From: Pseudomonadota bacterium
Lineage (GTDB): Bacteria > Pseudomonadota > Gammaproteobacteria > Burkholderiales > Casimicrobiaceae
Length of the DNA stretch: 64,000 bases
Direction: 5' to 3'
Assembly: GCA_018241745.1 (NCBI GenBank)
Contig: JAFEDG010000141.1
Span: 1 to 64,000, forward strand
The notes under the pieces were generated by a model. The model was not told where the DNA came from, ran no database searches, and saw nothing but the letters and a program-made list of their open reading frames with translations. Position numbers and translations under genes: made by a program. This document shows, piece by piece, positions 17,439-49,427 of this stretch (position 1 is the first letter of the stretch; every line of letters begins with the position of its first letter).

Positions 17439-17471
17439 ACAAAAAGCCCGGCACGCGGCCGGGCTTTTTGT
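17439..17471. terminator. bidirectional intrinsic terminator between the small exported protein gene and groEL
   Basis: The stem pairs 17441-17452 (AAAAAGCCCGGC) with 17458-17469 (GCCGGGCTTTTT), around a small loop. The A-run on one side and T-run on the other make it functional in both directions, as expected between convergent genes. Confidence 0.93.
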
Positions 17472-35392: not shown

Positions 35393-36859
35393 TCAGCCCG
35401 GTGGCGGGCCTCCGGGCGGTGGTCCACCGGCGGGCGGGCTGCCGTCGCCCCGGTTGCCGGCATTGCCAGGGCTGTCGGCATTGCGGCGGCCTTTGCCGTT
35501 GCTGGCGCCCTTGCCTTCGGTGCCGGCGGCACCCGCCCCGCCGGCGGCACCGGCCGCGCCCGCACCCCGCGTCCGGCGCGCGCCGGTCGGCGTCACCGTC
35601 GTGTCGCGCGACACCGTTTCCACGGTCATGCCTTCGCGCAGGCGGTCGGTGCCGTCGACGACGACGACGTCGCCCGGCGCCACGCCGCGGGTGATGACGG
35701 TGGTCTCGCCGTCGACCGGTCCCACGTTGACCACCTTGATCGACACCGTCTTGTTCGCGTCGACGACGTAGACGAACGTGCCTTGCGTGCCGCGCTGCAC
35801 GGCGGCCGACGGGACGACCGTCGCGTCGGGGATCGTCGTCACCAGCATCCGCACGTTGACGAACTGGTTCGGGAACAGCGCGCTGTCGGTGTTCGCGAAC
35901 TCGGCCTTCAGCTTGACCGTGCCCGTCGCGACGTCGATCTGGTTGTCCATCGTCAGGACCTTGCCCGTCGCGAGCTTGGCGGTCTGGTCGCGATTCCACG
36001 CGTCGACCGGCAGTGCGCCGGCCTTCATCGATGCCTGGACCTGCGGCACGTTCGTCTCGGGGATCGTGAACACGACGTCGATCGGCTGCAGCTGCGTAAT
36101 GACGACGATGCCGCTCGCGTCCGCCGCGTGGACGATGTTGCCGACGTCCACCTGGCGCAGGCCCAGGCGCCCTGCAATCGGCGCCGTGATCTTCGTGAAC
36201 GAGAGTTGCAGCTTGGCCGCGTCGAGGTTGCCCTGGTCCGACGCGATCGTGGCCTCGTACTGCGCGACCAGCGATGCCTGCGTATCGACCTGCTGGCGCG
36301 CGATGGAGTCCTGCGCGAGCAGCGTCTGGTAGCGGGCGAGGTCGGCCTTGGCATTGGCGAGCAACGCGCGGTCCTTCTGCAGCGTGCCGTCGGCCTGCGT
36401 GACCTGCACGGCAAACGTCCGCGGGTCGATCTCTGCCAGCACGTCACCGGCCTTCACGTAGTCGCCTTCCTTGAAGTTGATCCGCAGCAGCGGGCCGTCG
36501 ACGCGCGGCCGCACGGTCACCGTCGCCCGTGGCGTCACCGTCCCCAGCGCGCTCAGGTAGACCGGGAAGCTGGCCGTGCGCGCAGTCGCCGTGGCGACCG
36601 GCGCCGGCTTCGCGTTGGGGTCGAAGCGCCCACGGCCCGGCGCCGATGCGGCCGGCGCGGCGGGCGCCGCCGCATCGCTGCCGTGCAGGAAATGCCACGC
36701 GGCCCAGGCCACTGCGGCCAGCAGCAGGACGCCGAGCACGATCCAGCCGGTGCGGCGGCGCGGCGCTTGTTCTGGCGCAAGCGGGACTGCCGCCGCGCGG
36801 GCGGGCGCGTAGGGGGCGGGCCGCGGCGGGGGCGGCACGTTGGATTCATCGGGAGTCAT
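35393..36859 (-). CDS. mdtA: RND periplasmic adaptor protein, MdtA-like
   Basis: A 488-residue membrane-fusion protein. A proline-rich N-terminal cytoplasmic stretch precedes one membrane anchor (GWIVLGVLLLAAVAWAAWHFL). The barrel-sandwich half-motifs are RPRVDGPLLRINFKEGDYVKAGDVLAEIDPRTF and ITAPIAGRLGLRQVDVGNIV, split by an alpha hairpin. The C-terminal ~60 residues are low-complexity (Gly/Ala/Asn, ending GGPPPGGPPPG), longer than E. coli MdtA's tail. First gene of the operon mdtA-mdtB-mdtC-OMF; the promoter must lie in 36860-37135. Confidence 0.92.
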   Translation of the reverse strand: MTPDESNVPPPPRPAPYAPARAAAVPLAPEQAPRRRTGWIVLGVLLLAAVAWAAWHFLHGSDAAAPAAPAASAPGRGRFDPNAKPAPVATATARTASFPVYLSALGTVTPRATVTVRPRVDGPLLRINFKEGDYVKAGDVLAEIDPRTFAVQVTQADGTLQKDRALLANAKADLARYQTLLAQDSIARQQVDTQASLVAQYEATIASDQGNLDAAKLQLSFTKITAPIAGRLGLRQVDVGNIVHAADASGIVVITQLQPIDVVFTIPETNVPQVQASMKAGALPVDAWNRDQTAKLATGKVLTMDNQIDVATGTVKLKAEFANTDSALFPNQFVNVRMLVTTIPDATVVPSAAVQRGTQGTFVYVVDANKTVSIKVVNVGPVDGETTVITRGVAPGDVVVVDGTDRLREGMTVETVSRDTTVTPTGARRTRGAGAAGAAGGAGAAGTEGKGASNGKGRRNADSPGNAGNRGDGSPPAGGPPPGGPPPG

Positions 36860-37135
36860 GGCGGGTGTCGTTGTTTATCGTTGTCGTGCCGGGCCCGGCC
36901 GCAGGGGCCGTGGGTTGAGTCTCAATGTAGGGTTTGGTTGCACGGCTACTGTGAAGAAATCGTCAAGACCGGCGTCCACTCGCAACGAACTGTAACGACG
37001 GGCGGATGCGCCGTTTTCCGCCGCGCCGTCCGTCTGCCCGCCGTGCCGTCCGTACGCCCTGCAACCCCGTCCGGCCAGCGCCGGCGTTAATTTAGCCAGG
37101 CGGACAACAGGGTGGGCGCCACCCACGGGGGATCC
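36860..37135. other. noncoding region between divergent mdtA and GNAT gene
   Basis: 276 bases with no open frame I trust. Its middle part (about 36915-36990) is less GC-rich than its surroundings and probably carries the mdtA promoter. No BaeR-type box or clear palindrome was recognised. Confidence 0.5.
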
Positions 37136-37672
37136 ATGCTACGTCCTGCGCATATCGGTCACCTTGCGATGCTGCGCGCATTGATCCGCGACGGCGCCCG
37201 CGACGGCGCGTTCGACCCCGCGCTCGCCTGGGATTCGCCCCACGCGGACCGCTTCTTCACCGAGTTGCGCCAGGCGTTGAAGACCGGCTACTTCGTCATC
37301 ACGAACGAGCGCACCGGCACGCTGGAGACCGTCGCGGTGCCCGGCTACGTGTACTGGCCCGACGACGACGCCCCCGGCGCGCCCCCCGCGGGATTCGGGC
37401 TGTTCCGGGCCATCGGCGACGGCTACGAGCTGTGGCTTGCGGGCCTCGAGACGTCGCTGCGCGGCAAGGGGCACGGTCGCAGCATGCTGCAGGCGCTGTT
37501 CGCGACGCCAACGGGCAGGCGCACCCGCCACATGCGCGTCCGGCGCTCGGCGCGCCACGCGCAAGCGATCGCGCGGCTGCTGGAGGAACAGGGCTTCACG
37601 CCCACGCGCGAGACGACGACCGAGACGTGGTTCGTGCGCGCCAGCGACGCCCGCGCGCCGGCGTCGGCCTGA
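37136..37672 (+). CDS. GNAT-family N-acetyltransferase
   Basis: A 178-residue GNAT protein. The acetyl-CoA pyrophosphate-binding motif A is LETSLRGKGHGRSMLQALF (RGKGHG, about residues 112-130). A C-terminal FTPTRETTTETWFVR follows. The substrate is unknown. Start ATG 37136 is preceded by a GGGGGA stretch. Opposite to mdtA and convergent with the DedA-rhodanese gene, with only two bases between stops. Confidence 0.75.
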   Translation: MLRPAHIGHLAMLRALIRDGARDGAFDPALAWDSPHADRFFTELRQALKTGYFVITNERTGTLETVAVPGYVYWPDDDAPGAPPAGFGLFRAIGDGYELWLAGLETSLRGKGHGRSMLQALFATPTGRRTRHMRVRRSARHAQAIARLLEEQGFTPTRETTTETWFVRASDARAPASA

Positions 37673-39544: not shown

Positions 39545-42316
39545 TCAGTGCGCCTGTTCCCAGTTGGGCCCGACGCCGACGTCGACGACGAGCGGGACGT
39601 CGAGCTGCGCGACACCTTCCATCCGGCGCTTCAGTTCCGCGCGCACGCTGTCCACCTCCGCGTCCGGTGCTTCGAGCACCAGTTCGTCGTGGACCTGCAG
39701 CACGAGCTTCGTGGCGAGCCCCGAATCCGCGAGCCAGCGGTCCACGGCGATCATCGCGAGCTTGACCAGGTCGGCGGCCGTGCCCTGCATCGGCGCATTG
39801 ATCGCCGCGCGTTCCGCGGCCGCGCGGCGCGGGCCGCCGCCCGCGTTGATGTCGGGCAACCACAGCCGCCGCCCGAACACCGTCTCGACATAGCCCTGCG
39901 CCCGCGCCTCCTCGCGCGTCCGCTGCATGTACTCGGCGACGCCGGGATAGCGCTGGAAATAGCGGTCGATGAACTGTTGCGCGGCGGCACGCTCGATGCC
40001 GAGCTGCTGCGCGAGCCCGAACGCCCCCATCCCGTAGATGAGGCCGAAGTTCACGGCCTTGATGTAGCGGCGCTGCTCGGCGGCGACGTCCTCCGGCTTC
40101 ACGTTGAAGATCTCGGCCGCCGTCGCGCGGTGGATGTCCTGCCCCGCGTGGAAGGCCGCGACGAGCGTCGGGTCGCGCGACAGGTGGGCCATGATCCGCA
40201 GCTCGATCTGCGAGTAGTCGGCCGAGATGATCGAATGCCCCGGCGGCGCCACGAACGCCTCGCGGATCCGCCGCCCTTCGGCCGTGCGCACCGGGATGTT
40301 CTGCAGGTTGGGATCGGCGGACGCGAGGCGCCCGGTCACCGCGGTGGCCTGCGCGAACGTCGTGTGCACGCGCCCGGTCTTCGGGTTGACCATCGCCGCC
40401 AGCTTGTCCGTGTACGTCGACTTGAGCTTCGCGAGCGCACGGTGCTCCATCAGCACCTTGGGCAGCGCGTAGTCGGCGGCAAGCTCCTGCAGCACCTCCT
40501 CGTCCGTGGACGGCTGGCCCGTCGACGTCTTCTTGCGCACCGGCAACTGCATCCGCGTGAACAGGATCTCGCCCAGCTGCTTCGGCGACGACAGGTTGAA
40601 AGGCTGCCCCGCGAGCGCGAACGCCTGCTGCTCGAGCGCTAGCACGCGCTCGCCAAGCTCGCGACTCTGGGCGGCCAGCCGATCCGTGTCGACGAGGACG
40701 CCGGTGCGTTCCATCCGGAACAGCACGTCGCGCACGGGCATCTCGATCTGCGCGTAGATGGTGGCGAGCTTCGGATCGCGCGCGATGTCGGGATGCATCT
40801 TCTCGTGCAGCCGCAGCGTGACGTCGGCGTCCTCCGCGGAATAGGCGGTAGCGGTCTCCACGCTGACCTGCTCGAACGGTATGCGGGCGGCACCCTTGCC
40901 CGTGACGTCGTTATAGGAAATCGTCTTCCAGTCGAGCCAGCGCCACGCGAGGCTGTCCATGTCGTGCGGCCGGTGCGACTCCAGCACGTACGACTCGAGC
41001 AGCGTGTCGTGCGCCACGCCCTTCAGTGCGAGGCCGTCGTTGGCGAGCGCGTGTTCGTCGTACTTGACGTTCTGCCCGAGCTTCGCGCGCGACGCATCGG
41101 CGAACCACGGGGCGAGCGCCGCCAGCACGCGCGCGCGGTCGAGCTGCGCCGGCGCACCGGCATAGTTGTGGCCGAGCGGGATGTAGCAGGCGTTGCCCGC
41201 GGCGGTGGCGAACGCGAGGCCGACGATCGACGCCTGCATCGGGTCGAGGCTCGTCGTCTCGGTGTCGAAGCAGACGAGCGGCGCGGCGGCGATCGCGGCC
41301 TGCCAGCGCGCGAACGCTTCGTCGTCGACGACCATCTCGTACACGAGGTCGGCCGGCTTGCCCGTGCCGTCGCCGGCCGGCTCGGCCGGCAGGTCGAAAC
41401 GGCGTCCGCCGCCGTCGCGCGCAGCCTTGGCCGCGATCGTGCCTGCCGCGTCGTCGTTCTTCGCAGCCGCGCCGCCGGCGGCGTCGCGCAGCCAGCTCTT
41501 GAACTCGTAGCGCGTATACAGGTCGCGCAGCACGCTCTCGTCGGCCGGCGCGATCGTCAGCTGGTCGAACGCCGTCGGCAACGCGACGTCGGTCTTCACG
41601 GTGAGGAGCTTGCGCGCCTGCGGCAGCCAGTCGAGCTTGGCGCGCAGGTTGTTGCCGACGACGCCGCCGATCTCGTCCGCGTGCGCGACGATGTTGTCGA
41701 GCGACCCGTACTGCGTGAGCCACTTGACCGCCGTCTTCGGGCCCACCTTGTCGACGCCGGGGATGTTGTCGACCGTGTCACCGATCAGCGTCAGGTAATC
41801 GAGGATCAGGTGCGGAGGCACGCCGAATTTCGCCTCGACGCCCGCGGGGTCGAACGTCTCCCGGCTCATCGTGTTCACGCAGCGCACGCCCGCGTCGACG
41901 AGCTGCGCGAGGTCCTTGTCACCGGTTGAGATCGTGACGTCGATGCCGGCGGCGCGCGCGCTGCGCGCCAGCGTGCCGATGACGTCGTCGGCCTCGACGC
42001 CCTCGACCATCAGCAGCGGCCAGCCGTTGGCGCGAATCAGCTCGTGCAGCGGCGCGATCTGCAGCGCGAGGTCGTCCGGCATCGGCGCGCGATGCGCCTT
42101 GTACTCGGGATACCAGTCGTCGCGGAACGTCTTGCCCGGCGCGTCGAACACGACACCGAAATAATCCGGCTTGCCGTCGTCGATCATCAAGCGCAACATC
42201 GACAGCACGCCGCGCAATGCCCCCGTGGGCTCGCCGCGCGACGTGCGCAGGTCGGGCAGCGCGTGATACGCCCGATACAGGTAAGAAGAACCGTCGACGA
42301 GGACCAGAGTGGGCAT
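39545..42316 (-). CDS. polA: DNA polymerase I
   Basis: A 923-residue family A polymerase with all three domains. The 5' nuclease starts MPTLVLVDGSSYLYRAYHALPDL with YFGVVFDAPGKTFR and VEADDVIGTLA. The 3'-5' exonuclease has CFDTETTSLDPMQASIVGLAFA (DxE retained) and YSAEDADVTLRL. The polymerase has STDEEVLQELA, ADYSQIELRIMAHLS (motif A), RRYIKAVNFGLIYGMGAFGLAQQL (O-helix) and LQVHDELVLEAP (motif C). It processes Okazaki fragments and repair gaps. Its ATG overlaps the start codon of the divergent LOG gene within GCATGC (42313-42318). A -10-like box, TATACAAC on the minus strand near 42360, lies inside the LOG gene. Confidence 0.97.
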   Translation of the reverse strand: MPTLVLVDGSSYLYRAYHALPDLRTSRGEPTGALRGVLSMLRLMIDDGKPDYFGVVFDAPGKTFRDDWYPEYKAHRAPMPDDLALQIAPLHELIRANGWPLLMVEGVEADDVIGTLARSARAAGIDVTISTGDKDLAQLVDAGVRCVNTMSRETFDPAGVEAKFGVPPHLILDYLTLIGDTVDNIPGVDKVGPKTAVKWLTQYGSLDNIVAHADEIGGVVGNNLRAKLDWLPQARKLLTVKTDVALPTAFDQLTIAPADESVLRDLYTRYEFKSWLRDAAGGAAAKNDDAAGTIAAKAARDGGGRRFDLPAEPAGDGTGKPADLVYEMVVDDEAFARWQAAIAAAPLVCFDTETTSLDPMQASIVGLAFATAAGNACYIPLGHNYAGAPAQLDRARVLAALAPWFADASRAKLGQNVKYDEHALANDGLALKGVAHDTLLESYVLESHRPHDMDSLAWRWLDWKTISYNDVTGKGAARIPFEQVSVETATAYSAEDADVTLRLHEKMHPDIARDPKLATIYAQIEMPVRDVLFRMERTGVLVDTDRLAAQSRELGERVLALEQQAFALAGQPFNLSSPKQLGEILFTRMQLPVRKKTSTGQPSTDEEVLQELAADYALPKVLMEHRALAKLKSTYTDKLAAMVNPKTGRVHTTFAQATAVTGRLASADPNLQNIPVRTAEGRRIREAFVAPPGHSIISADYSQIELRIMAHLSRDPTLVAAFHAGQDIHRATAAEIFNVKPEDVAAEQRRYIKAVNFGLIYGMGAFGLAQQLGIERAAAQQFIDRYFQRYPGVAEYMQRTREEARAQGYVETVFGRRLWLPDINAGGGPRRAAAERAAINAPMQGTAADLVKLAMIAVDRWLADSGLATKLVLQVHDELVLEAPDAEVDSVRAELKRRMEGVAQLDVPLVVDVGVGPNWEQAH

Positions 42317-43040
42317 GCAGGGAACGCCGAAGATTCCGGAGACGATCGATCCCCAGGCGTTGTATACGTCGAATGGCCAGGAGGCCTGGCGCGTGCTGGG
42401 GATTATGTCAGAGTTCCAGACCGCGGCCGACCGGCTCCGCGGCATCCGACCTGCGGTGTCGATGTTCGGCAGCGCGCGCATCCGCGAAGGCCATCCGTAC
42501 TACGAGCGCGCCATCACGATATCGCGCCTCCTGTCCGACGCCGGCTTCGCCGTCATCTCGGGCGGCGGCCCTGGGCTGATGGAGGCCTGCAACCGCGGCG
42601 CGTTCGCGGGCCGCTCGCCGGCCGTGGGCCTCAACATCCTGCTGCCGCACGAGCAGATCTCCAACCAGTACCAGGATGTCGGCATCACGTTCCGTCATTT
42701 CTTTTCGCGCAAGATGACGTTCGTGCGCTTCGCGTCCGCCTATGTCGTGATGCCCGGCGGCTTTGGCACCCTGGACGAGCTGTCGGAATGCCTGACGCTC
42801 GTGCAGACGAAAAAGGCGCGGCGGATTCCGATCATCCTGGTCGGCGGCGACTTCTGGAACGGCTTGCTCGCCTGGATGCGCGAGCGCCTGGTCAGCGAAG
42901 GCATGATCGCGGCCACGGACCTCGAGCTGATGCAGGTCATCGACGAGCCGGACGCCGTCGTTTCCGCCATTTTCGACTTCTACGAAGGGCGCGGCTTCCA
43001 ACCGACGCGCGACGAGCTGGACCGCATGCTGAACCTGTAA
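42315..43040 (+). CDS. LOG family protein (cytokinin riboside 5'-monophosphate phosphoribohydrolase-like)
   Basis: A 241-residue protein of the LOG/lysine-decarboxylase-like family. Signature motifs are VISGGGPGLMEACNRGA and VVMPGGFGTLDELSE (PGGxGTxxE). VSMFGSARIREGHPYY is the family Rossmann start. It probably splits nucleoside 5'-monophosphates into base and ribose phosphate. ATG 42315 shares two bases with polA's ATG on the other strand; no other start yields the conserved QEAWRVLGIMSEFQ lead. GAGG at about 42299 could serve as ribosome-binding site. Confidence 0.87.
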   Translation: MQGTPKIPETIDPQALYTSNGQEAWRVLGIMSEFQTAADRLRGIRPAVSMFGSARIREGHPYYERAITISRLLSDAGFAVISGGGPGLMEACNRGAFAGRSPAVGLNILLPHEQISNQYQDVGITFRHFFSRKMTFVRFASAYVVMPGGFGTLDELSECLTLVQTKKARRIPIILVGGDFWNGLLAWMRERLVSEGMIAATDLELMQVIDEPDAVVSAIFDFYEGRGFQPTRDELDRMLNL

Positions 43041-43048
43041 CGCTTTGC

Positions 43049-43054
43049 TAGAAT
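43049..43054 (+). promoter_or_regulatory. extended -10-like box next to the DUF2782 start
   Basis: TGC precedes TAGAAT (TGCTAGAAT), an extended -10 that ends six bases before the GTG at 43061. There is no Shine-Dalgarno sequence between. It lies directly behind the LOG stop (43040) and points to a leaderless transcript. Confidence 0.55.
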
Positions 43055-43060
43055 CGGTGC

Positions 43061-43444
43061 GTGACCTCCCGCTCCGCACCGCTTGGCTCGTTGCCGTACC
43101 GGCTCGCAGTGGGCATCGCGCTTGCAGCGTGCAGTGCGCTGGCTGTTGCACAGTCCAACAGCGCCAGCGTACCGCCGCCGCCGCCGATGGAGGCGGTACC
43201 GGACCAGCCGTCGTCGGCGCCGCCTGACCCGGATCTCGAGCCCCAGGTCACGATCATCCAGAAGGACCAGGACATCGTCGAGGAAGTGCGCACCGGCGGC
43301 CAGCTCCGCTTCGTGCGCGTGACGCCGCCGCACGGACGGCCTTACTACCTCGTTCCTACCGGCACGGGACCCAACGCATTCATCCGTCGCGACAGCTTGG
43401 ACAGCGGGCTGTCCGTGCCGATGTGGGTGCTGTGGTCCTGGTAA
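43061..43444 (+). CDS. DUF2782 exported protein
   Basis: A 127-residue protein with a signal sequence (about residues 12-30, YRLAVGIALAACSALAVA), a proline-rich linker (SVPPPPPMEAVPDQPSSAPPDP), then QVTIIQKDQDIVEEVRTGGQLRFVRVTPPHGRPYYLVP, the DUF2782 core, which is found in the same polA-thrB neighbourhood of many betaproteobacteria. Function unknown; probably periplasmic. Start is GTG at 43061; no Shine-Dalgarno sequence is present and an extended -10 box lies six bases upstream. Confidence 0.82.
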   Translation: MTSRSAPLGSLPYRLAVGIALAACSALAVAQSNSASVPPPPPMEAVPDQPSSAPPDPDLEPQVTIIQKDQDIVEEVRTGGQLRFVRVTPPHGRPYYLVPTGTGPNAFIRRDSLDSGLSVPMWVLWSW

Positions 43445-43529: not shown

Positions 43530-44489
43530 ATGTCGGTCTACACCACGGTCAGTGCCCCGGAACTGGACGCCTGGCTCGCCCGCTACAACGTGGGGCGGCT
43601 GGTCGAGTGCGAACCGATCGCGGCCGGCATCGAGAACACGAACTACTTCGCGACGACGGAGCTAGGCCGCTACGTGCTGACGCTGTACGAACGGATGCCC
43701 GCGGAGGAGCTGCCGTTCTACCTCAACCTGATGGCACACCTCGCGCGCGCCGGCGTACCCGTGCCGGCGCCCGAGCCGGATCGCACGGGGGCGCTGTTCT
43801 CGCTGCTGAACGGCAAGCCGGCGGGCATCGTCGCGCGCGTCGACGGCGCCTGGACGCCGGCGCCATCACCGGCACAGCGCGCGGCCGCCGGCGCGGCGCT
43901 GGCCACGTTGCACCAGTGCACGGCAACCTATCGCGCGCGGCTCACCAACCGGCGCGGCCCGGCGTGGTGGCGGCAGGCGGCGCGCGCGGTGCGCCCCTAC
44001 GTCACGCCCGCGCAGAACGAGCTGCTCGCCAACGAAATCCGCTTCCAGACCGGTTACGGCAAGGAGAAGCTGCCGAAGGGCGCGATCCACGGCGACCTCT
44101 TCCGCGACAACGTGCTGTTCGACGGCGACCGGGTCGCCGGCATCATCGACTTCGGTTTCGCGGCCACGGATTTCTACGCACTCGACCTCGCGATCGCCGT
44201 CAACGACTGGTGCAGCGACCGCAACGGCGCGCTGGACCCGGAGCGCACGCGCACGTTCGTCGGTGCGTACGCCGCGGTCCGCATGCCCACGCCGGAGGAA
44301 CGCACGCAGTGGCCTGCGCTGCTGCGTGCCGCCGCGCTGCGCTTCTGGCTGTCGCGGCTGTATGACCTCCACCTGCCGCGCGCCGGGGAGATCACGCACG
44401 CGCACGACCCGGCGGAATTCGAGCGCATCCTGCGCGACCGCGTGACGACGATGCCGCGCTTTCCCGACGTTGCGCCGCCCGCCGCGTGA
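43530..44489 (+). CDS. thrB: homoserine kinase (choline-kinase-like ThrB)
   Basis: A 319-residue kinase of the aminoglycoside phosphotransferase/choline kinase fold, the ThrB2 form used by Pseudomonas and betaproteobacteria. It starts MSVYTTVSAPELDAWLARYNVGRLVECEPIAAGIENTNYFA; the catalytic segment is AIHGDLFRDNVLFDGDRVAGIIDFGFAATDFYALDLAIAVNDWC (HGDxxxxN with the metal-binding IDFG). It phosphorylates homoserine in threonine synthesis. It is followed ten bases later by a BPSS1780-family gene. Confidence 0.93.
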   Translation: MSVYTTVSAPELDAWLARYNVGRLVECEPIAAGIENTNYFATTELGRYVLTLYERMPAEELPFYLNLMAHLARAGVPVPAPEPDRTGALFSLLNGKPAGIVARVDGAWTPAPSPAQRAAAGAALATLHQCTATYRARLTNRRGPAWWRQAARAVRPYVTPAQNELLANEIRFQTGYGKEKLPKGAIHGDLFRDNVLFDGDRVAGIIDFGFAATDFYALDLAIAVNDWCSDRNGALDPERTRTFVGAYAAVRMPTPEERTQWPALLRAAALRFWLSRLYDLHLPRAGEITHAHDPAEFERILRDRVTTMPRFPDVAPPAA

Positions 44490-44499
44490 CGCGCCCCCG

Positions 44500-45351
44500 A
44501 TGACCAACGCAGTGCCCGTATCTTTCGTCGTGCATCCCCCGCAACAGGGCGCGCTGTGGCTGCGCCAGTCGTTCGCGATGTTCCGCGCCGCCCGGCTGCC
44601 ATGGCTCGTGCTGCTGTTCCTGTACTACTTCGTGATCCTGGTCGCGCGCATCATCCCGTTCCTGGCCTACGTGCTGCCGGTGTTGAAGCCCGTGTTCGCC
44701 GTCGGCTTCCTCGCGGCCGCGTGGTCGCAGGAGCGCGGCGGCCGCCCGCGTCCCGCCGACCTGTTCCGCGGCTTTCGCGCCAACCTGGTCGCGCTGGTGC
44801 TGCTCGGCCTGTTCCTGATGGCCGGCATGACGCTGGCCACGCTCGCGACGAGCCTCGTCGACGACGGCAAGCTGATCGACCTGTTCGTGCATCCGCCGGC
44901 GCTCGACGCGCACACGGATCCGGACGCTGCCGGGCGCCGCGTCGAGGCCGTGTTCGCGGACGGACGCGTGCAGCTCGGCATGATGCTGGCTGTCGCGTGT
45001 GCCCTGCCGGTCCTGCTCGCGATGTGGTTCGCGCCCGCGCTGGTCGTGTTCCAGGATCGCGGCGCGCTGTCGGCGCTCGGCACCAGCCTGCGCGCGGCGC
45101 TCGCGAACTGGCGCGCGATCGTCACCTACGTGCTGTGCGTGTTCGCGCTGATGGCCGTCGTGCCCGCGCTGCTGCTGACGATCATCGGCGTGCTCGGCTC
45201 GTTCGGCGGCGACGCGCTGCGCGTCGTGCTGACGTTCGTGATCCTGATGCCCTACCTCGCGATCGTGATGGCTACGCTGCAGATCAGCGACTATGTCGCG
45301 TATCGCGACGTGTTTCATCCCGACGAGCCGGTGTCGCCGGGCGAAGCGTAG
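44500..45351 (+). CDS. BPSS1780-family integral membrane protein
   Basis: A 283-residue membrane protein. It begins VHPPQQGALWLRQSFAMFRAARLPWLVLLFLYYFVILVARIIPFLAYVLPVLKPVFAVGF, then LVALVLLGLFLMAGMTLATLA, MLAVACALPVLLAMWFAPALVVFQDRGALSALGTSLRAALANW and a final hydrophobic pair. It shares the layout and the MWFAPALVVFQD/MWFAPGLVAVQG segment with the protein at 38710, so they are paralogues. Function unknown. Ten bases after thrB; probably cotranscribed. Confidence 0.82.
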   Translation: MTNAVPVSFVVHPPQQGALWLRQSFAMFRAARLPWLVLLFLYYFVILVARIIPFLAYVLPVLKPVFAVGFLAAAWSQERGGRPRPADLFRGFRANLVALVLLGLFLMAGMTLATLATSLVDDGKLIDLFVHPPALDAHTDPDAAGRRVEAVFADGRVQLGMMLAVACALPVLLAMWFAPALVVFQDRGALSALGTSLRAALANWRAIVTYVLCVFALMAVVPALLLTIIGVLGSFGGDALRVVLTFVILMPYLAIVMATLQISDYVAYRDVFHPDEPVSPGEA

Positions 45352-45580
45352 GCGAGCCCGCACTCCGACCTCACGCCGGCGGCGGTGACGGGCCTGCCTG
45401 GCGTCTTGCGGGCGCGCCTTCGACTTCGGCCATCCGATAGCCTCGTCCGTGCGACATCGCGCCAGTGAGCGACGCTGAGAGAGATCACCGGCCTCGCCGA
45501 CGTGCGCGCAAGGAGCGCACGGCCGGGAGTCACGGGCAGCCGAGGTCGAAGCGTCAGTTCGCTGCGCACAGCGCCAGGCA

Positions 45581-45647
45581 GCGGTGAGGGGGCCGTCCGA
45601 CGCAGCGCCTGAGTTCGTGAAGCGGAGTCGGACGGCCCCCTCGCCGC
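45581..45647. repeat. long GC-rich hairpin (21-bp arms)
   Basis: Arms 45581-45601 and 45627-45647 pair over 21 positions with a single G-U/T-G mismatch (45585/45643), including a perfect 16-bp run with GGGGGCCGTCC. The loop is 25 bases. No T-run follows on either strand, so it is not a standard intrinsic terminator, though it may stop transcription between the convergent genes. Confidence 0.85.
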
Positions 45648-45699
45648 CGCCGGCGTACGGACGAAGCGCAACGACGCCGCCGGCGTAGGGACGAAGCGC
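45645..45699. repeat. two tandem 30-base repeats
   Basis: CGCCGCCGGCGTA-x-GGACGAAGCGC occurs at 45645-45669 and 45675-45699, identical except for one base, with a 30-base period. A partial third copy (CGCCGCC at 45705) enters the 3' end of uvrD. Confidence 0.8.
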
Positions 45700-45701
45700 G
45701 A

Positions 45702-47960
45702 CTACGCCGCCTCGAGCTTCGCATACTCCAACGCCAGCCACTTGACGCCCGCGTCGCGGAAGTTGACCTGCACGCGCGCGTCGGACCCTCGCCCTTCCGC
45801 GTCGATGATGACGCCGACGCCGAACTTCGCATGACGCACGCTCTGCCCGATCCGCCATTGCGGCGCCTGCGGCGTGGGCTTCGGGCTGCCGGGCGTGGGT
45901 GCCGGCAGCGCGCCCCACTCGGCCGCGTCGACGTCGATCGCGCGTGCGCGCATACGCTGCGGCGACAGCCATTGCAGCAGCCCGGACGGCACCTCGTCGA
46001 TGAAGCGACTCTGGATGTTGTAGCGCGACTGGCCGTGCAGCATGCGGCTTTGCGCGTACGTGAGGTACAGCCGGCGGCGCGCGCGCGTGATCGCGACGTA
46101 CATGAGCCGCCGCTCCTCGTCGACGCCGGCATCGACGTTGAAGCTGTTCTCGTGCGGGAAGAGGCCCTCCTCGAGGCCGGTGACGAACACCGTGTGGAAC
46201 TCGAGGCCCTTGGCGGCATGCACGCTCATCAGCTGCAGCGCGGGCCGGCCTTCCTCGGCCTGCGTGTCGCCCGCCTCCAGCGCGGCATGCGCGAGGAACG
46301 CGGTCAGCGGGTCGGACGCGCCTTCGTCGGGACCGTCCGCCGGCGGCTCGGCAGGCACGGCCTCGACGCGCGTGGACAGCATCGGGGCGTCGGTGGCGAG
46401 GTCGCCTTCGCGGACGAACGTCTCGGCGGCGTGTACGAGCTCCTCGAGGTTCTCCAGCCGGTCCTGGCCGTCCTTCTCCGCCTTGAAGTGCGCGGCCATG
46501 CCGGACATCTCGATGATCGTCGCCACGGCTTCCGAAAGCGGCAACGCTGCCGTGGACGCGCGCAGCGCCTCGACCAGCTGCACGAAACCGCCGAGGCTCG
46601 CGCCGGCACGGCCGGTGATGCCACCGGCGCGCGCGGCCTGCCACAGTGTCGAGCCGGCGCTGCGCGCGTTCTCCTGCAGCTGCTCGAGCGTGCGCGCGCC
46701 GATGCCGCGCGGCGGGAAGTTGACGACGCGCAGGAACGCGCCGTCGTCGTCGGGGCTCGCGACGAGCCGCAGGTACGCGAGCGCATGCTTGACTTCGGCG
46801 CGCTCGAAGAAGCGCAGGCCGCCATAGACGCGATACGGGATGCCGGCCGCGAACAGCGCATGCTCGAGCACCCGCGACTGCGCGTTGGAGCGATACAGCA
46901 ACGCGATCTCCGACGCGGCGAGCCCTTCGTCGACGAGGCCGCGGACGACGTCGACGATGAACGCCGCCTCGTCCAGGTCCGACGGCGCCGAGAACACGCG
47001 CACGGCATCGCCCTTGCCCGCGTCGGTCCACAGGTTCTTGCCGAGCCGCGCCTGATTGTTGGCGATCAGCGCGTTGGCGGCGTCCAGGATGTTGCCGTGC
47101 GAGCGGTAGTTCTGCTCGAGCTTGATGAGCCGCACGGGGCGCTCGGGTGTCGCGAAATCGCGCTCGAAATGCTGCATGTTGGCGACGTTGGCGCCGCGGA
47201 ACGCGTAGATCGACTGGTCGTCGTCGCCGACGGCGAACACCGCCGCGTCGGGGCCCGCGAGCAGCCGTAGCCAGCGGTATTGCAGTTCGCTCGTGTCCTG
47301 GAACTCGTCGACGAGGATGTGCGCGAAGCGCGCCTGGTAGTGCCCGCGGATGCCCGCGTGGTTGGACAGCAGTTCGAAACTGCGCAGCAACAGCTCGGCG
47401 AAGTCGACGACGCCTTCGCGCTGGCACGCGGCCTCGTACAACGCGTAGTACTCGACCAGCCGGCGCTCGTGGTCGTTGCCCGCCTCGACCGCGTTGGGCC
47501 GCTTGCCGGCTTCCTTGGCGTCGGCGATGAACCATTGGAGGTCGCGCGGCGGGAATTTCTCGTCGTCGATGCCGTGCGTACGGTACAGGCGCTTGATCAG
47601 CGCAAGCTGGTCCTGCGTGTCGAGGATCTGGAACAGCTGCGGCAGGTTGGCGTCGCGGTAATGCGCGCGCAGCATCCGGTTGCACAGGCCGTGGAACGTG
47701 CCGATCCACATGCCGCGCGTCGACTGCGGCGTCATCGCGGAGAGGCGCGTCAGCATTTCGCGCGCCGCCTTGTTCGTGAACGTGACGGCGAGGATACCCA
47801 TCGGCCGCGCCTGCCCGGTGCCCAGCAGCCACGCGATCCGCGTGGTCAGCACGCGCGTCTTGCCGCTGCCGGCACCGGCCAGGATCAGCGCGGAAGCCTG
47901 CGGCAGCGTGACGGCGGCAAGTTGCTCGGGATTGAGGTTGTCGAGGAGCGGTGATGCCAT
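45702..47960 (-). CDS. uvrD: ATP-dependent DNA helicase UvrD
   Basis: A 752-residue superfamily 1A helicase. LLDNLNPEQLAAVTLPQASALILAGAGSGKTRVLTTRIAWLL gives the Q motif and Walker A (AGAGSGKT); ILAVTFTNKAAREM is motif Ia; FAHILVDEFQDTSELQYRWLR is motif II; VGDDDQSIYAFRGA is motif III; EQNYRSHGNIL is IV; LMSVHAAKGLEFHTVFVTGLEEGLFPH is V; EERRLMYVAITRARRRLYLTYA is VI. It unwinds DNA in excision and mismatch repair. ATG 47960 has no Shine-Dalgarno; a TATCAT box ends six bases upstream. Confidence 0.96.
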   Translation of the reverse strand: MASPLLDNLNPEQLAAVTLPQASALILAGAGSGKTRVLTTRIAWLLGTGQARPMGILAVTFTNKAAREMLTRLSAMTPQSTRGMWIGTFHGLCNRMLRAHYRDANLPQLFQILDTQDQLALIKRLYRTHGIDDEKFPPRDLQWFIADAKEAGKRPNAVEAGNDHERRLVEYYALYEAACQREGVVDFAELLLRSFELLSNHAGIRGHYQARFAHILVDEFQDTSELQYRWLRLLAGPDAAVFAVGDDDQSIYAFRGANVANMQHFERDFATPERPVRLIKLEQNYRSHGNILDAANALIANNQARLGKNLWTDAGKGDAVRVFSAPSDLDEAAFIVDVVRGLVDEGLAASEIALLYRSNAQSRVLEHALFAAGIPYRVYGGLRFFERAEVKHALAYLRLVASPDDDGAFLRVVNFPPRGIGARTLEQLQENARSAGSTLWQAARAGGITGRAGASLGGFVQLVEALRASTAALPLSEAVATIIEMSGMAAHFKAEKDGQDRLENLEELVHAAETFVREGDLATDAPMLSTRVEAVPAEPPADGPDEGASDPLTAFLAHAALEAGDTQAEEGRPALQLMSVHAAKGLEFHTVFVTGLEEGLFPHENSFNVDAGVDEERRLMYVAITRARRRLYLTYAQSRMLHGQSRYNIQSRFIDEVPSGLLQWLSPQRMRARAIDVDAAEWGALPAPTPGSPKPTPQAPQWRIGQSVRHAKFGVGVIIDAEGRGSDARVQVNFRDAGVKWLALEYAKLEAA

Positions 47961-48015: not shown

Positions 48016-49380
48016 GTGTCCACCGTCCCCATCCCGCGCCCGTCCGACGCCACGCCCGCGGCCACGTCCGCGGCGATGCGCGGCTTCGTGCAGTGGATAC
48101 GCGGCGCCGCGCCCTACGTCCACGCGTTCCGCGGCAAGACGTTCGTCATCGCATTCGGCGGCGAGGTCGTCGCCGACGACTCGTTCCTGGGCGTCGTCCA
48201 CGACCTCAACCTGCTGCACGCGCTTGGCATCCGCCTCGTCGTGATCCACGGCATGCGGCCACAGATCGAGGTGATCCTCGCGCAGCAGTCGATCGAGAAC
48301 CGCTACCAGAACGGGATGCGCGTCACCGACCCGGCGACGATGGACTGCGCGCTCGAGGCTGCCGGCCAGGTGCGCAGCCGCATCGAGGCGCTGCTGTCGC
48401 TCGGCATCCCCAACTCGCCGATGTCGGGCTCGCGCAACCGCGTCTCGAGCGGCAACTACATCATCGCCAAGCCGATGGGCGTCATCGACGGCGTCGACAT
48501 GCAGCTCACCGGCGAGACGCGCCGCGTGGACACGCAGGCGATCCAGCAGCGGCTCGAGGACGGCGACATCGTGCTGATCTCGCCAATCGGCTACTCGCCC
48601 ACCGGCGAGATCTTCAACCTGACGCTCGAGGAAGTGGCGATGCAGGTGGCCGTGCGGATGCAGGCGCACAAGCTGATCTTCCTGATGGACGCGGATGGCG
48701 TGCGCAACTCGCGTCGCCACCTGTTGACCGACCTGTCGACGAAGGAAGCGGAAGCACTGCTCGAGAAGCCCGAGCGCCTGTCGCCGGACGTGCGCCATTA
48801 CCTTCCGTGCGCCGTGCGCGCCTGCGACAACGGCGTCAAGCGCGCGCACCTCCTTTCGCGCCACACCGACGGCGCGCTGCTGATCGAGCTGTTCACGCGC
48901 GACGGCGTGGGCACGATGGTGTCGGCGACGCCGCTCGCGCACATGCGCAGCGCGACGATCGACGACGTCGGCGGCATCATCTCGATCATCGAGCCGCTGG
49001 AAGAGGCGGGCGTGCTGGTGCGCCGGTCGCGCGAGCGCCTGGAGGCCGAGATCGAGCGCTTCATCATCGCCGAGTACGACAGCCAGATCATCGGCTGCGC
49101 GGCGCTGTACGCGTTCCCGAACGAAGGCGTCGGCGAGCTCGCCGCGCTGGCCGTGGACCCCGACTTCCAGCGCGAGGGCTATGGCGAGGCGTTGATGCGC
49201 GAGATCGAGTTCCGCGCCCGCAAGCTGAAGCTCAAGTCGCTGTACGTGCTGACGACGCGCACGTCGGGCTGGTTCCTGGAGCGTGGGTTCGAGCTCGTCA
49301 GCGTCAACGACCTGCCGCAGGAAAAGCGCGCGCTGTACAACTATCAACGCAATTCGCTCGTCTACCGCAAGAACCTGTAG
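48016..49380 (+). CDS. argA: amino-acid N-acetyltransferase (N-acetylglutamate synthase)
   Basis: A 454-residue ArgA with an N-terminal amino-acid-kinase-like domain ([65 protein letters not shown]) and a C-terminal GNAT domain ([55 protein letters not shown]). It acetylates glutamate, the first arginine step, and is normally inhibited by arginine. The first 20 residues after GTG 48016 are Pro/Thr/Ala-rich; ATG 48076 (MRGFVQWIR) matches the E. coli N-terminus better. GTG 48016 is favoured only by a leaderless model with TATAAT at 48001. Confidence 0.92.
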
Positions 49381-49427
49381 GGTCCGACCCTGATTTCGCG
49401 CCTCAGGCGAAATCAGGGTCGGACCCT
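49379..49427. repeat. perfect 21-bp inverted repeat with GGGTCCGACCC core (REP-like)
   Basis: Arms 49379-49399 and 49407-49427 are exact reverse complements around a 7-base loop (GCCTCAG). The left arm begins within the argA stop codon. The arms carry GGTCCGACCC, itself a palindrome, plus a CGAAATCAGGGT part. It resembles repetitive extragenic palindromes dispersed by RAYT transposases. It may double as terminator; no T-run follows. Confidence 0.9.

Follow-up and report, generated by a model that had tools for sequence, protein, structure and literature searches.

A dispersed palindromic repeat with a conserved tip and a covarying stem behind a uvrD-type gene of a Casimicrobiaceae bacterium

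The noncoding block behind the helicase gene

The window, the whole stretch of 64,000 nucleotides analysed here, is contig C46 of the draft genome G000 (3.47 Mb in 168 contigs). Two convergent genes in it leave 350 bases free of genes between their stop codons (Table 1), as a preliminary description of this DNA had stated. The gene on the minus strand encodes a helicase that we take, from its sequence, to be UvrD, and its C-terminal part had matches in 22 of 22 genomes of the genus. The 293-aa ORF on the plus strand scored 20.5 bits against DUF2189, under the Pfam cut-off of 26.2. The block had also been called the longest noncoding one in the window, which is plausible if unproved. Under rough ORF calling it ranks third among the gaps, and the two longer gaps probably result from ORFs that were trimmed or that overlap: the gap at 42482-43186 overlaps a 243-aa ORF at 42309-43040, and that at 36740-37168 shrinks to 252 once longer starts are used.

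Within the block, positions 45581-45647 make up a hairpin whose stem is 21 bp (20/21 pairs) and whose loop is 25 nt. Dinucleotide shuffling of the block never produced such a stem in 60 trials (17/21 at best), and the fold z-score of 45540-45701 was -5.5. No T-run or intrinsic terminator was found in the block, and the description of a 21-bp hairpin without T-run was accurate. The 30-base tandem repeat said to run into uvrD was also recovered, with its two copies at 45642-45671 and 45672-45701. In the sense of uvrD its text (GCGCTTCGTCCNTACGCCGGCGGCG) takes in the 5' foot of the element, where five other copies have CGTCC. The distant inverted repeats that had been reported alongside them were near chance: the best 17-nt arms 140-190 nt apart paired at 14/17 positions (2/60 shuffles), and the best 21-nt arms at 15/21, which was equalled by 20/60 shuffles.

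The element copy consists of a 24-nt arm, a 25-nt loop, a 24-nt arm and a 6-nt flank, in the same register as the other copies. It scored 88.5 bits with covariance model R1 and 85.7 bits with R2, being a member of the training set of both models. A weaker hairpin behind the plus-strand gene was excluded from the family; stems of 13 bp are also present within genes of the window in the same hairpin scan.

Table 1. Features of the block in the window, and the clpX copy of the element
Feature	Coordinates	Strand	Basis or remark
Noncoding block with one element copy, convergent genes on either side	45352..45701	.	ORF ends 45351 (+) and 45702 (-)
uvrD-type helicase gene, 752 aa, hairpin behind its stop	45702..47960	-	ORF call
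Convergent neighbour, 293-aa ORF	44470..45351	+	ORF call
Element copy, sense to uvrD, 52 nt behind stop	45572..45650	-	Alignments A2 and A3
5' arm (uvrD sense), sequence particular to the window copy	45627..45650	-	20/21 inner Watson-Crick pairs
Conserved tip/loop TCCGCTTCACGAACTCAGGCGCTGC, core CGCTTC...AGGCGCT	45602..45626	-	Common to other copies
3' arm, complementary to 5' arm	45578..45601	-	Hairpin scan and pair count
Two 30-base tandem copies up to the uvrD stop	45642..45701	-	90% identity
Weak 13-bp hairpin behind the plus-strand gene, without conserved tip	45350..45419	+	Hairpin scan
clpX copy	L306 4905-5005 (G000 C80, clpX-lon)		28 of 30 stem positions paired; 10 nt past the clpX stop

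A hairpin family with a constant tip and a changing stem

A blastn search of G000 with the block found hairpins on contigs C135, C91, C80 and C58, which have the loop, but not the stem, in common with the window copy. Searching this genome for the loop pattern, with up to 3 mismatches allowed, yielded 10 sites versus 1 for the reversed control; nine of the sites are hairpin copies and the tenth (C89) lies inside a called ORF. Covariance models added copies on C84 and C67 (R1) and an inverted pair on C51 (R2). Two more were picked out by inspection: a 26-bp hairpin that follows a dacA-type gene and stands opposite the recN copy, and a variant between genes presumed to be clpX and lon, whose loop has a GC-rich insert between divergent versions of both tip halves. 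The family thus has 16 copies in G000, three of them divergent (dacA and clpX, both placed in the family by eye) or decayed (C80 at 13.07 kb). One congener, G012, has 17 distinct family hairpins among 23 matches of R2 with E values up to 0.1; of the other six matches, five read a listed hairpin from the opposite strand and the sixth (C216) is a different palindrome. The preliminary description had proposed an extragenic repeat element as one explanation of the block, and the relatives of the hairpin found by genome-wide search, in its own genome and in this congener, support that proposal. The description had counted a joint lack of copies, transcript and conservation as a refutation, and such a lack is contradicted by the copies found.

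A unit is about 75 nt long, with stems of about 20-28 bp and loops of 24-45 nt. The typical tip core, in the sense of the neighbouring gene, is CGCTTC-N(7-8)-AGGCGCT, with imperfections. For most copies the variable stretch within the tip measures 7-8 bases; it measures 20 in both C51 copies and 28 in the dacA copy, and at clpX only GCTTC and AGGCGC are left, 34 bases apart. Among 28 pairs of 8 full copies, a comparison that leaves out C80, C58, C84, C67 and three G012 copies, the 25-nt loops were 85% identical and 18-nt parts of the arms 52%, with 35% expected from composition.

The stem covaries strongly. Alignment A3 holds 15 copies, 12 from G000 and 3 from G012; the dacA, clpX and C51 copies are absent from both alignments because of their loop length. 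Of the 345 cells of A3, 92.5% are paired and 91 are compensated, and 19 of its 23 stem pairs have changed on both sides, the C84, C67 and G012 copies having been recruited through a model that includes pairing. Slid controls gave 40-45% paired cells and 7-10 pairs changed on both sides. The covariation score was reached by 0 of 500 shuffles and the count of pairs changed on both sides by 1 of 500. An earlier alignment of 10 copies, recruited by loop pattern or blastn, gave 16/23 pairs and 53/229 compensated cells. Among 315 inner pairs there are 291 Watson-Crick pairs, 4 G-U pairs and 20 other mismatches. G-U makes up one sixth of the 24 non-Watson-Crick cells, which in these small numbers is the chance proportion, so an RNA-type tolerance of G-U is not visible and pairing may be kept at the DNA level. 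A structured RNA, the other explanation that had been offered for the block, is favoured by the strong covariation but not by the frequency of G-U, which is no commoner than other mismatches, and is possible only.

Most copies in G000 (14 of 16) follow a stop codon in sense orientation at a distance of 10-53 nt, and counted by site, 10 of the 11 near a stop are sense; these distances rest on our own crude ORF calls. Besides uvrD and clpX (Table 1), the distances are 15 nt for the gene at C91a, 35 for a prolyl-oligopeptidase-like gene, 37 for gpmI, 32 for UbiA, 29 for an SDR-like gene, 26 for an aldehyde-dehydrogenase-like gene, 11 for recN, 15 for the dacA-type gene, 16 for a manC-like gene, 18 for the gene on C67, 47 for a methyltransferase-like gene before C51a and 53 for the gene after C51b. 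Seven neighbour proteins were compared with Pfam, which gave UbiA, FAD-binding, peptidase S11, NlpC/P60, peptidase S41 and the sub-threshold DUF2189, and no match for a 100-aa ORF; the names of all other neighbours are ones we presume from their sequence. Two G000 copies break this pattern. C135a points at the start of the S41 peptidase gene and is preceded by no gene end in sense, and the decayed C80 copy at 13.07 kb is antisense to a small gene. In G012, the copy lies 17-56 nt behind a stop in sense at 5 of 8 sites (C213, C401, C240, C400 and C169). Of the other three sites, C165 has a copy 109 nt behind a stop, C360 follows no gene end and C1 is ambiguous; the plus-strand copy on C401 does not follow a gene end either.

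Spread, pairs and other palindromes in the same slots

No copy was confirmed outside G000 and G012. R1 had matches in 2 of 61 genomes, its own included, and R2 in 5 of 22 genomes of the genus at E values up to 0.1, clear in two and weak in G001, G013 and G019. The G001 match is a GGGGTCAG palindrome outside the family, both G019 matches were rejected as lying inside called ORFs, and the G013 match, an 18-bp hairpin whose tip is vague at best, is a doubtful candidate. Loci were also tested for the combination of tip and flanking stem, which was present in G000 only: the result was negative at 23 uvrD loci from 21 relatives, at 14 clpX loci of relatives (no G012 clpX locus passed the cut-off) and at 21 recN loci from 20 relatives. 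Some of the relatives' loci are short or end near the gene. Vertical retention of the uvrD, clpX and recN hairpins was not seen in these loci. The gap between gpmI and ctpA is 55 nt in G012, by called ORFs, versus 468 nt with a hairpin pair in G000. The loop pattern matched 43 of 399 genomes of the order, a sample that did not include G012, with at most 2 sites in any genome other than G000 and 0-2 per genome for reversed-pattern controls. G000 itself had 7 sites, six of them known copies and one on C80 at 84.2 kb. A wider contig scan gave, among the matches listed, 131 loop-pattern instances on 124 loci (7 viral loci included). Long stems accompany 7 of these at least 131 instances, on 4 loci, three of which match G012. 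A distant blastn search of a plasmid collection with the block and 100 flanking bases on each side gave no match.

Copies also occur in pairs and arrays. In G000, two inverted hairpins lie about 240-300 bp apart, centre to centre, on C91, on C135 (twice) and on C51; the window copy has no recognisable inverted partner. Pairs (spaced by about 130 bp) and arrays (about 118 bp) both occur in G012, frequently where a contig ends, and the hairpins of this genome fall into two main stem types whose tips are much alike. The C91, C135 and C51 pairs and the G012 arrays have the organisation of BIMEs or REP dimers (alternating, close, several per genome). The partners of the C51 pair have an identical extended tip core of 33 nt on arms that are 62% alike, and both partners of the G012 C1 pair carry a tip variant of their own on arms 81% alike. 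Loop identity was 0.88 within units versus 0.70 between units in G000 (4 units), and 0.93 versus 0.75 in G012 (3 units). The partners are inverted, and therefore loops with the same tip are complementary on one strand. The recN/dacA pair is a counterexample, with loops of 25 versus 45 nt, and the clpX tip is partly like that of C51 (GCAATTCG versus GCAGTTCG). Partners may have a common tip because their loops pair with each other, because gene conversion acts on the tips, or through descent. One G012 hairpin near a contig end (C165, L077 3209-3280) is a chimera of a type A 5' arm, the common tip and a type B 3' arm. It is followed by an inverted spacer, as if the spacer had been flipped by recombination at the tips, and may be an assembly artefact. 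GCGACATCGC occurs at 45451-45460 of the window, and a TGTCGCGACA-like palindrome lies in mid-spacer in both C135 units (L034 and L035), which may be chance.

The 3' slot of uvrD is a hot spot, occupied by unrelated palindromes or repeats in at least G007, G011, G012, G013, G018 and G021. At loci L112-L131 the occupants include GGGGTCAG types and GTCATCCCCGCGAA arrays, and in several other genomes the slot is shorter than 100 nt. G016 (L318) and G005 (L319) have their own long hairpin directly behind clpX, with a different loop. A stem scan of 385,643 bases of G000, about 11% (stems of at least 15, loops of 12-50), found 13 hairpins clear of called ORFs, of which 4 belong to this family, 6 to a GGTCCGACC family and 3 to neither. 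The single Y1 transposase (RAYT-type) detected in G000, at C105 6658-6987, is flanked by GTAGGGTCCGACCCTA, the GGGTCCGACCC palindrome. Because this palindrome flanks the only detected Y1 transposase, the element behind uvrD is a second, separate family. G012 had no Y1 hit, and both genomes are incomplete. No transposase was noticed beside family copies on crude inspection of ORFs, and no insertion boundaries or target-site duplications were convincing by eye.

Relation to known repeats and possible roles

To our knowledge, no repeat with a constant tip and a variable stem has been published; none was recognised among the full-text matches listed. The attC sites of integrons have constant ends and a variable centre, the reverse of the pattern in this family. 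Rfam gave matches below threshold only, those at the hairpin being to microRNA families (best 32.1 bits versus a threshold of 168). Like an intrinsic terminator, the element is a stable GC-rich hairpin just behind a stop codon, but it has no U-tract after it and its loop is 25 nt. An ordinary-looking intrinsic terminator is found in the same window at 17439-17471, behind a gene that we take to be groEL.

The REPIN/RAYT literature includes Bertels and Rainey 2011 (PMC3116915). As described in Nunvar 2010 (PMC2817692), REPINs and REPtrons with RAYT resemble our family in their inverted pairs and non-autonomous nature; they differ in that the Y1 transposase detected in G000 borders a different repeat. 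Passages of Di Nocera 2013 (PMC3733652) give stems of 5-13 bp and loops of 2-20 for GTAG REPs, in whose stems G-U pairs are "often observed", and stems of 8-9 bp and loops of 4-5 for CGTC REPs; they also mention CGTC repeats without linked transposase genes and state that the preference for REP heterodimers "has no obvious explanation". Set beside these passages, the family is like REPs and BIMEs in consisting of small dispersed palindromes behind genes, with inverted dimers, arrays, compensated stem differences and heterodimers. It is unlike them in its longer stems and loops, constant tip, lack of a GTAG head, few copies and rare G-U. The family shares the heterodimer puzzle with REPs and the lack of a transposase link with the CGTC repeats. 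Assignment to GTAG REPs was rejected: the flanks of 12 G000 and 3 G012 copies have no unpaired GTAG or GTGG where the hairpin begins, intact copies have stems of about 20-28 bp rather than 5-13 bp, and the sole Y1_Tnp of the two incomplete genomes is flanked by another repeat. CGTC stands at the 5' foot of 5 of 12 G000 copies (C91a and C135a-d) and 0 of 3 from G012, and a CGTC REP was likewise rejected, as neither a stem of 8-9 bp nor a loop of 4-5 nt was found. TIR palindromes of TIRYT with GGGGWSAS are also long, and the GGGGTCAG hairpins in the uvrD slot look similar to them, but the conserved part of our aligned copies is the tip and not a GGGGWSAS end, as far as the passages of PMC3733652 describe them.

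The family itself, its covariation, its gene-end position and its dispersal were observed, and its transcription and mechanism are inferred. Judged from sequence, the element is probably a dispersed REP/BIME-like palindrome that has come to reside at gene ends, where it would serve mRNAs as a 3' hairpin. The mRNA of uvrD would end with the element as a very stable 3' hairpin, which would limit both attack by 3' exonucleases and transcription running on into the convergent gene. The tip would be the part recognised by a putative protein, perhaps the factor that spread the repeat; it would stay constant because that protein recognises it, and the stem would only have to pair. The stems are too divergent for recent copying from one master, which is awkward for simple transposition and counts against this reading. 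We rate as slightly better than even the chance that the copy in the block belongs to a dispersed, REP/BIME-like palindrome, specific to its lineage, that acts as a hairpin at the 3' end of transcripts. That the hairpin is instead a terminator specific to uvrD, or a chance GC-rich hairpin and no repeat, is extremely unlikely. It does stand behind uvrD in a GC-rich window where 13-bp stems are common, but it has no T-run, its stem appeared in 0 of 60 shuffles and other copies carry the same tip.

A purely DNA-level selfish repeat, MITE- or REPIN-like, is possible, if rather unlikely. The tip would then be the site of a putative single-strand-acting transposase, template-switch repair of near-palindromes would keep the stems perfect, and the 3' position would merely be where insertion is harmless. 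The patchy spread fits such a repeat, with clear matches in 2 of 22 genus genomes and weak, other-looking ones in 3 more, as do the G012 arrays with their spacing of about 118 bp, the G-U pairs no commoner than other mismatches and the other palindromes that fill the same uvrD slot in relatives. Harmless insertion would not, however, be expected to give the sense orientation found at 10 of 11 near-stop sites of G000; stems little alike between copies whose tips are alike, and the failure to find a linked transposase, also speak against it. A two-hairpin device, in which loops with the same tip kiss and fold convergent transcript 3' ends or cruciforms, seems decidedly unlikely. The C51 pair and the G012 C1 pair, each with one tip variant in both partners, and the higher loop identity within units than between them (0.88/0.93 versus 0.70/0.75) agree with it. 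The units are few, though (4 in G000 and 3 in G012), and the contrast comes mainly from two; the recN/dacA loops differ in length, the clpX tip is partly like the C51 tip, and some copies, including the one in the window, stand singly. Tips made alike by common descent or by gene conversion would give the same picture, and there is a chimeric G012 copy. We also consider it doubtful that the inverted hairpins make up a new kind of paired palindromic element with self-complementary stems, a shared tip and kissing loops. In such an element the stems would differ so that the pair avoids collapse into one long foldback. If true, kissing pairs would explain why REP dimers are often heterodimers.

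The REP families considered here are classified by their stems and by a short tag at the end, GTAG or CGTC, and in the present family it is an imperfect tip that is constant. Because the stem is free to change if it stays paired, the copies amount to a natural experiment on what maintains the pairing, a DNA process or an RNA structure. The inverted pairs offer a testable idea on the unexplained heterodimers of REPs. The practical value is modest, the lineage being narrow, the genomes drafts only and the function unassigned.

The window has another palindrome of this general kind at 49379-49427. It is a 21-bp hairpin (AGGGTCCGACCCTGATTTCGC...) of the GGGTCCGACCC palindrome family, directly behind a 454-aa ORF that we take for argA.
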